Assembly: GCA_022794255.1 (NCBI GenBank)
Contig: JAAWEL010000089.1
Coordinates: 24,757-88,756 of the forward strand
Direction of reading: 5' to 3'
DNA from: Lachnospiraceae bacterium
Lineage (GTDB): Bacteria > Bacillota > Clostridia > Lachnospirales > Lachnospiraceae
Length of the DNA stretch: 64,000 nt
Numbering within the stretch: the first letter of the stretch is position 1; each line of letters begins with the position of its first letter. Of the stretch, positions 22,172 through 23,612 are shown piece by piece. The notes below the pieces were generated by a model. It was given only the letters and a program-made list of their open reading frames with translations, had not been told where the DNA came from and did no database searches. The position numbers and the translations under genes are program-made.

Positions 22172-22750
22172 TTAATGCAACGCTATACCAGACATTTCCA
22201 CGGAAATCTCTGTATTTTCATACAGAAGCTTCCGCTCAGCATCCTCCTTCAGCATAATTCCTAACACAATCGCCTGATCCTCCCCCCATAATCTGTGGCG
22301 GATCATGGCATATCTCTTTTTAAATTGGTATTTTTCAATTTGTTCCCTGCAAATCCCCAAAGGCTCTGAAATCCTGCAAACCTGCCCCTGCTCATTCTTC
22401 AAAACATAGGAAAGTTTGACCATATGATCTTCCCCGGATATTTTTTTCAAAAATTCCCCGTCTTCTTTCATCATAGGAAGGATTGTCAGATTTTTGCAGG
22501 CAAGCAGATTTGCAATAGCTGGAATCTGTTCAAAACGTTTAATAAGAAAGCCCTGCTCTTCACAGGTAAGAAACACACATCCAGGAAACAAGGGTTCCAC
22601 ATGAACAACACTTCTCTGTTGTTTTCTCCATATCCGCTCCTGATAAATCACAAAACATTCATTATATAGAAAGGAAGGAACAGTTCTGGTAATCTCATTT
22701 ACCAGTTCTTTTTCTTTTCCCACCCATGTTTTTAACAAATACCACCGCAT
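22172..22750 (-). CDS. NusG-family paralog (LoaP-like) without an evident KOW domain
   Basis: MRWYLLKTWVGKEKELV... NGN fold; ends ENTEISVEMSGIALH with no KOW-like segment. Confidence 0.8.
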   Translation of the reverse strand: MRWYLLKTWVGKEKELVNEITRTVPSFLYNECFVIYQERIWRKQQRSVVHVEPLFPGCVFLTCEEQGFLIKRFEQIPAIANLLACKNLTILPMMKEDGEFLKKISGEDHMVKLSYVLKNEQGQVCRISEPLGICREQIEKYQFKKRYAMIRHRLWGEDQAIVLGIMLKEDAERKLLYENTEISVEMSGIALH

Positions 22751-22835
22751 TGGATATTCCCTCCTCTCTTGTCTGCTGACTGTTCATCGATTATAGTCGG
22801 CACACGGATCCTTCCCTGCAGAAATAAGGAGGAAG

Positions 22836-23612
22836 TCAGCACCCACGTTTGCGCAAAATTTCCGCTGGTATCTCAATCGTCATATTTTGCCCCAAAAGGT
22901 ATACGCCGACTTTTACCATATGATTCTTCACCTCATAAACCACTCCGGGCATTCCTTCAAAGGCTCCGCTAATTACCACAACGGAATTTCCCGGAAAGAA
23001 TACGGGCAATCCTTTTTTTGCCTCCGGCTCCTCATGGATTCTATATTGCTCCGGCACCTGAATTGGTGCCTCCACCTTCCCGTAGCGCAGCTCCTGCCGA
23101 ATATCTTCATCCAGAACAATCCCCAGCAAAACAGTTTTCTCTTCTCCCAAAATCCTCAATCGTACAATCACGTGTCTTTTTCCAAATCGGCAACGGACAA
23201 TCCCGGTAACACAAGCCTTCAATGGTCCTGTTACCTGGCGAATATTTCCCTTTTCATCAGTTGACAAATAAGAAAGGCGGATCACATGATCATCACTCAT
23301 GATTCTTTTCAAAAATGCTTCTTCTTCCTTCTCAACAGTAAGGAAAAAAGATTCGTCATCTGCCATCATTTTTGACATGGCCGGAATCTGCTTCAAACAA
23401 AAAAACAGAGCCTCCGGCTCTTTGGATGTAATAAATACATATCCTGGAAATGCCCGCTTTACATGAACAAAATTTTTCTGCTGTCTTCGCCAAAGTTGCT
23501 CATGATAAACTACGAAACATTCTTCATACAAATAGGAGGGCACGATTTTTTGTATCAGACCTATCACCTTTTCTTCTTCACCAGTTCTTGTCTGAAGTAC
23601 ATACCATCGCAT
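22836..23612 (-). CDS. NusG-family paralog (LoaP/UpxY-like antiterminator) with KOW domain
   Basis: MRWYVLQTRTGEEEKVIGLIQK...; C-term FPGNSVVVISGAFEGMPGVVYEVKNHMVKVGVYLLGQNMTIEIPAEIL (KOW-like). Confidence 0.88.
   Translation of the reverse strand: MRWYVLQTRTGEEEKVIGLIQKIVPSYLYEECFVVYHEQLWRRQQKNFVHVKRAFPGYVFITSKEPEALFFCLKQIPAMSKMMADDESFFLTVEKEEEAFLKRIMSDDHVIRLSYLSTDEKGNIRQVTGPLKACVTGIVRCRFGKRHVIVRLRILGEEKTVLLGIVLDEDIRQELRYGKVEAPIQVPEQYRIHEEPEAKKGLPVFFPGNSVVVISGAFEGMPGVVYEVKNHMVKVGVYLLGQNMTIEIPAEILRKRGC

Follow-up and report, generated by a model that had tools for sequence, protein, structure and literature searches.

Tandem LoaP-like NusG paralogs behind invertible promoters in Lachnospiraceae, with a proposed trans-locus inhibitory role for the second member

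Domain architecture of the paired proteins

The window, a stretch of 64,000 nucleotides from a Lachnospiraceae bacterium (contig JAAWEL010000089.1 of assembly GCA_022794255.1), carries two operons, A and B, each headed by a pair of NusG-family genes. At operon A, a tyrosine recombinase located within inverted repeats is followed by A1, A2 and a capD-like gene, an order repeated at operon B (recombinase, leader, LoaP1, LoaP2, capD-like gene). The relevant coding features are as follows.

22836..23612, reverse strand: A1 (LoaP1), a 258-aa NusG/LoaP paralog (open reading frame list, Pfam NusG, NF033641, AlphaFold, Foldseek)
Residues 1-107 of A1: NGN domain
23097-23285, reverse strand: KOW1 of A1 (residues 110-172)
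22845-22994, reverse strand: extra KOW2 of A1 (residues 207-256)
22172..22750, reverse strand: A2 (LoaP2, accessory), a 192-aa LoaP paralog (NF033641, AlphaFold, Foldseek, tree)
22235-22423, reverse strand: KOW1 of A2 (residues 110-172), a protein with an NGN domain and no KOW2
20060..22126, reverse strand: capD-like UDP-sugar dehydratase, first biosynthetic gene of operon A (Polysacc_synt_2, 3.3e-116)
51204..51947, reverse strand: B1 (LoaP1 of operon B), NGN and KOW1 without KOW2 (NF033641, alignment)
50653..51219, reverse strand: B2 (LoaP2 of operon B), NGN and KOW1 (NF033641, alignment)
48610..50619, reverse strand: capD-like gene of operon B (Polysacc_synt_2, 2.1e-117)

The tandem NusG paralogs that the preliminary description had placed between 22172 and 23612 were confirmed as two NusG-family open reading frames, both exceeding the gathering score of the Pfam NusG model PF02357 (A1, 37.5 bits; A2, 28.1 bits). 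The NCBIfam LoaP model NF033641, which covers an NGN and a KOW domain in 166 positions with a curated cut-off of 125 bits, aligned end to end with both proteins, residues 3-165 of A1 corresponding to model positions 1-161 (122.3 bits) and residues 3-167 of A2 to positions 1-163 (79.6 bits). Neither these two scores nor those of B1 (105.3 bits) and B2 (77.7 bits) reached that cut-off, and by profile the four proteins are a LoaP-like divergent subgroup that falls outside LoaP in NCBI's strict sense. With the UpxY family model NF033644, A1 scored 51.5 bits against a cut-off of 100, the LoaP model scoring far higher.

Structure prediction of both proteins, as had been proposed at the outset, was undertaken using AlphaFold with 36 relatives as input for A2 and 39 for A1, and returned NGN and KOW1 in each case. 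In A2 (pLDDT 91.9), the NGN domain is followed by a single five-stranded barrel at residues 114-166, and in A1 (pLDDT 91.0) by an equivalent KOW1 barrel plus a second barrel at residues 210-255. Foldseek comparisons with the LoaP-RNA crystal structure 8f5g gave 171 aligned columns for A2 (E = 4e-12; TM 0.69/0.78) and about 172 for A1 (E = 3.6e-12). Profile, AlphaFold and Foldseek hence agree on an NGN plus KOW fold that matches LoaP over its full length: A2 is a LoaP of normal length, comprising NGN and KOW1, and A1 has KOW2 in addition to these domains. The preliminary description was mistaken in holding that only the first paralog retains a KOW, and the anatomy is rather the opposite, since A2 has a full KOW1 and A1 is distinguished by its extra KOW2.

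A related proposal was that the second protein might lack a KOW and, as a decoy, use its NGN domain alone to compete for RNA polymerase. The absence from LoaP2 of its neighbour's C-terminal KOW2 would favour such a role; however, the long KOW2-bearing C-terminus is likewise missing from 13 of 33 LoaP1 proteins, and the full KOW1 barrel detected in A2 by all three methods, together with the purifying selection on LoaP2 reported below, reduces the probability of the decoy to practically nil. The accompanying description of the two proteins as dedicated regulators of operon A, here of LoaP type, fared better and is supported.

The genes surrounding the pairs are polysaccharide genes, coding for UDP-sugar dehydratase, sugar transferase, glycosyltransferase, UDP-glucose dehydrogenase and flippase-like proteins. 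A terminator scan of positions 9000-25000 returned 18 candidates compared with 11.0 +/- 3.0 in shuffled sequence, a weak excess. Operon A also encodes a heparinase II/III-like protein (13755-15530) and, at its distal end (126-2135), a fusion of PEP mutase with a cytidylyltransferase-like domain, the latter protein suggesting a phosphonate-decorated polysaccharide.

Invertible elements and their association with LoaP pairs

Upstream of each pair lies an element with the following features.

23892..23935, no strand: operon-A-proximal arm of inverted repeat A (44 nt, 98% complementary; palindromic core, 0 expected by chance)
24730..24773, no strand: distal arm of inverted repeat A (inverted-repeat search; palindromic core)
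24016..24594, forward strand: tyrosine recombinase within invertible element A (Phage_integrase, 4.7e-25)
24697..24725, forward strand: promoter-like site TTGCAT-17-TATGAT just inside the distal arm, directed away from operon A (OFF)
52176..53013, no strand: invertible element B, with arms at 52176-52216 and 52973-53013
52293-52871, forward strand: recombinase of element B
52938-52966, forward strand: promoter-like site TTGCAA-17-TATGAT of element B, directed away from operon B (OFF)

Since both promoter-like sites point away from the adjacent genes, both operons are read as being in the OFF state. The same genome contains a third LoaP pair on contig C52 (locus C) and a single LoaP with KOW2 on contig C12 (locus D, C12:21793), the latter without inverted repeats. 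At locus C, contigs C63 and C52 both break at the invertible element (L010 1-1050 and L007 1-110) with the same flank on both sides, which may reflect the presence of both orientations in the culture, or else an assembly artefact, for which one orientation at inverted repeats would suffice.

A survey extending to 120 genera of Lachnospiraceae, to 24 genomes from within the genus and to 35 named loci recovered tandem pairs from D16-56, 1XD21-29, Eisenbergiella and other Lachnospiraceae genomes, with up to seven in a single genome. Among loci with at least 1 kb of upstream sequence, inverted repeats of at least 20 nt and at least 85% within 1.4 kb were recorded at 38 of 42 tandem pairs versus 3 of 36 single LoaPs (control open reading frames, 1 of 210), with a Fisher p of 4e-14 that overstates the evidence because it ignores shared ancestry and some 3-4 independent evolutionary events underlie the counts. 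The joint occurrence of paired NusG paralogs and an inversion switch, to which the preliminary description had drawn attention, is consequently a strong and recurrent association. On inspection, all four exceptional pairs showed inverted-repeat arms: L095 has arms with a recombinase in a longer element, those of L113 match at 79%, and L144 and L145 each have one arm within range. With respect to the three exceptional single LoaPs, L117 resembles an AT-rich chance match, while the repeats of L126 and L146 are genuine. The L126 protein is of the accessory type and that of L146 is basal to the LoaP2 clade.

The promoter-like site recurs in a constant position, next to one arm on its inner side, and mostly points away from the operon. 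It faces the operon at L123 and L126, and also at L055, L057, L061, L097 and L109, for which homologous elements point away, so that both orientations are represented among homologous loci. Recombinase homologues with 67-82% identity occur in the source and related genomes, and in several genomes a single close homologue accompanies three to seven such loci, implying that the recombinase would act in trans. Groups ii and iii, which comprise pairs of different descent (see below), are likewise situated behind invertible promoters, group ii having different repeats (GTCGCTTAAC) and group iii mostly group-i-like ones. With inverted repeats around a promoter, a recombinase, and both orientations among homologues, elements A and B are identifiable from their sequences as tyrosine-recombinase invertible promoters constituting a predicted phase switch, and tandem pairs seem to occur almost exclusively behind such invertible DNA switches.

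This distribution bears directly on the role of the second protein. Were LoaP2 a second, cooperating antiterminator, acting on downstream terminators or with other partners after LoaP1 had loaded at the leader, or forming a LoaP1-LoaP2 heteromer, restriction to invertible loci would not be predicted; furthermore, single LoaPs alone head similar capD-type operons, which argues that a second LoaP is dispensable for long operons. We nevertheless regard cooperation as a serious, if rather unlikely, rival, given the properties of LoaP2 considered in the next section. An alternative in which LoaP2 acts within its own locus only, for instance by autoregulation that damps LoaP1 after the switch has turned ON, would accord with the pairing and co-inheritance of the two proteins and with a single leader element reachable by both, but leaves the absence of LoaP2 from non-invertible single-LoaP loci unexplained, and is judged improbable.

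Ancestry of the pairs and their leader elements

In a tree based on NGN plus KOW1, the downstream members (LoaP2), 32 in all, formed one clade with support 100, and a second clade with support 96 united the 32 upstream members (LoaP1) and one partial locus. The two clades with their mirrored subclades point to one old duplication, after which the LoaP1-LoaP2 pair was inherited as a unit. Single LoaPs with KOW2 branch just outside these clades, which makes KOW2 a probably ancestral domain that has since disappeared from most LoaP2 and part of LoaP1. Some LoaP2 proteins, those of L057, L067, L070 and L076, reach 286-321 aa, and a remnant of KOW2 is possibly kept there. Group ii pairs (G123, G137, G138) and group iii pairs (L095-L098) belong to other LoaP clades, and the accessory members i_2, ii_1 and iii_1 fall at three separate places in the tree. 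In view of the long iii_1 branch, and of support values obtained as SH-aLRT in a quick search, the accessory LoaPs, and hence the pairs, are held to have arisen independently in at least two, and probably three, lineages. Genomes with three or more pairs mostly hold one further single LoaP locus lacking inverted repeats.

Median dN/dS values of 0.13 for LoaP1 and 0.15 for LoaP2 are indicative of purifying selection, and thus neither protein is decaying. LoaP2 has a fixed signature consisting of K7, W9, R39, C58 and C63, with W9 in 33/33, C63 in 32/33 and C58 in 30/33 proteins. The last of these converts FPGY to FPGC, a motif of which the tyrosine, presumably situated on the surface that binds the clamp helices of RNA polymerase, is present in 33/33 LoaP1 proteins (Y58), FPGY otherwise being kept in nearly all canonical LoaPs. 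Within genomes, divergence among LoaP2 paralogs mostly equals or exceeds that among LoaP1 paralogs, a pattern that fits specific partners without demonstrating inhibition.

These data make it very improbable that LoaP2 is a neutral duplicate travelling with the cassette, for although it did originate by duplication of the LoaP1 lineage, its low dN/dS, clade-wide signature and the repeated independent recruitment of accessory members are all contrary to such a fate. The cooperating antiterminator, by way of comparison, derives its strength from several such properties: LoaP2 is predicted with high confidence to have a complete NGN-KOW1 fold, is under strong purifying selection, always adjoins LoaP1, with which it is presumably co-transcribed, and has invariant R42 (33/33) and K/R43 in the region aligned to the RNA contacts of LoaP. 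On structure alone, retention of NGN and KOW1 makes a positive role equally possible; the change from FPGY to FPGC, however, alters a motif otherwise nearly universal among canonical LoaPs, and counts against it.

The leaders of operons A and B contain two further features.

23684..23700, reverse strand: ATGGCGAAGC element (AATGGCGAAGCTTGCTC) in the leader of operon A (stringent pattern search)
23752..23828, reverse strand: stretch with the conserved leader RNA hairpin (AAAACC...GGGGUUAUA) of operon A (covariation alignment, model R1)
51984..52000, reverse strand: ATGGCGAAGC element in the leader of operon B (stringent pattern search)
52096..52172, reverse strand: leader RNA stretch of operon B (model R1)

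The stringent ATGGCGAAGC pattern had four matches in the 3.4 Mb genome, one each ahead of A, B, C and D (control, 0), and a looser version gave further matches. Across the 120 genera the pattern matched seven other genomes, all with LoaP hits, and most of these matches were just upstream of a LoaP, the two exceptions being G114:C6 and G079:C32. Among 92 LoaP leaders, the ATGGCGAAGCNTRCCC motif was present 52 times in the forward versus once in the reverse orientation, and it lies about 25-290 nt ahead of group i LoaP1 and most single LoaPs. Pairs of groups ii and iii have it in the interval separating the two genes, immediately ahead of the canonical rather than the accessory LoaP; the accessory gene of these groups therefore precedes the recruitment element, a further point against cooperation.

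RNAalifold applied to the short element alone gave no secondary structure. The conserved hairpin lies farther upstream, and in an alignment of 34 sequences 87.6% of cells were paired compared with 36-50% when the alignment was slid, with compensatory change in 33 cells; the corresponding shuffles leave sequence relatedness in place. Covariance model R1 detected 26 sites in 11 genomes, and 12 in the 120 genera, counts that include some sites from its own training alignment. All were at LoaP loci of group i, at D, or at the related single L146, and genomes with group ii pairs had no R1 match. The leader RNA and the ATGGCGAAGC element are thus upstream of every LoaP1 in the source genome, and their occurrence before A, B, C and D suggests one cis-target common to all loci.

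No Rfam family exceeded its gathering threshold in the window or in six loci. Low-scoring Rfam matches of the leader were dismissed as chance, except for a AUGGCGAAGC end shared with RAGATH-28. UNCG-type hairpins were absent from leaders A, B, C and D, and among the 92 LoaP leaders were recorded 8 times in the forward versus 5 times in the reverse orientation.

Proposed roles and comparison with known systems

The architecture, the pairing, the cis-elements, the association with invertible promoters and the occurrence of both orientations among homologous loci are observed, and can be accommodated in the following model. The tyrosine recombinase would flip the promoter between the inverted repeats and, once facing the operon, this promoter would yield a transcript beginning with the leader hairpin and ATGGCGAAGC element. 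These would recruit LoaP1 (NGN-KOW1, often with KOW2), which would modify RNA polymerase such that the terminators of the long operon are read through. LoaP2 (NGN-KOW1) would bind the same RNA or polymerase surface unproductively, thereby limiting other LoaP-dependent loci in trans, above all the non-invertible default locus, as a NusG-derived analogue of UpxZ. By analogy with LoaP and UpxY biology, LoaP1 is best read as an autogenous antiterminator of its own operon. A shared cis-target, and pairs in phase-variable, mostly multi-locus genomes with a default locus, make trans-locus inhibition analogous to that by Bacteroides UpxZ the most likely role of LoaP2.

Taken as a whole, with phase-variable operons headed by a LoaP1 antiterminator and a LoaP2 inhibitor, the model is advanced tentatively, at a shade below an even chance. 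It is favoured by the full-length LoaP folds of two proteins that move as a pair, by the location of the motif before the canonical LoaP in groups ii and iii, and by the fixed signature and purifying selection of LoaP2. Against it stand the genuine inverted repeats at two single LoaPs (L126 and L146) and the lack of the B. velezensis UNCG hairpin from the leaders of the source genome. The broader proposition, that accessory LoaPs are NusG-derived trans-locus inhibitors which evolved repeatedly where Lachnospiraceae capsule loci became phase-variable, convergently with UpxZ and in the lineage of the window via a shared new leader RNA, is possible but somewhat more doubtful.

If the model is true, Gram-positive gut bacteria would possess a capsule-switching logic parallel to that of Bacteroides but made from other parts, and the exclusivity of capsules bears on both phage sensitivity and host interaction. 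The leader RNA and ATGGCGAAGC are a candidate cis-target for LoaP in Clostridia, a class in which little has been established about targets beyond the dfn hairpin, and the pairs would represent a natural, repeatedly arising case of NusG-family subfunctionalisation into activator and accessory protein, with a second KOW. A literature search, most subscription journals lying outside its range, returned no paper on Lachnospiraceae dealing with LoaPs in tandem or with a combination of LoaP and invertible promoters.

LoaP of Bacillus velezensis (difficidin/macrolactin; 8f5g) shares with the window proteins the NGN-KOW1 fold and length, leader-encoded recruitment, and a gene beside a long biosynthetic operon; once bound to a hairpin in the leader, it counteracts NusA and thereby favours readthrough (PMC12691694). 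Unlike it, the LoaPs described here are tandem, often have an extra KOW2, lie behind an invertible promoter, score below the LoaP cut-off, and have a different leader RNA without the UNCG hairpin. RAGATH-28 RNA (RF03052) has a AUGGCGAAGC end in common with the leader RNA, but leader A at 14.0 bits is far below the Rfam cut-off of 45.3 and is not a member. Between a LoaP-like gene, which ends about 20 nt earlier, and a terminase-like phage gene, G037 carries a bona fide RAGATH-28 (L172, G037:C85:15112-15197), a single case in which this RNA may serve as a LoaP recruitment leader in prophages.

The ops element of RfaH is GGCGGTAGCNTG, which resembles GGCGAAGCNTR, and the two systems have in common a specialised NusG paralog and a short G-rich recruitment sequence; by way of difference, the closest profile of the window proteins is LoaP, and their element may be read as RNA or as DNA.

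Bacteroides genomes contain several invertible capsule loci plus a non-invertible one, and UpxZ is, to our knowledge, not a NusG homologue. UpxY activates its own capsule operon, while UpxZ, encoded after UpxY (PMC7315117), represses non-adjacent ones (PMC7315117, PMC7593976). In Eggerthella lenta, a member of another phylum, capsule inversions reposition a locus relative to loaP (PMC13174815). The window operons share with UpxY/UpxZ an invertible promoter, regulators as the first two genes, and several loci per genome alongside a non-invertible one; they differ in phylum, in that both regulators are NusG-family LoaPs, and in that inhibition is here what we infer. The comparison with UpxZ would nonetheless appear strengthened by the confinement of pairs to phase-variable, mostly multi-locus genomes, and by the independent recruitment of their accessory members.
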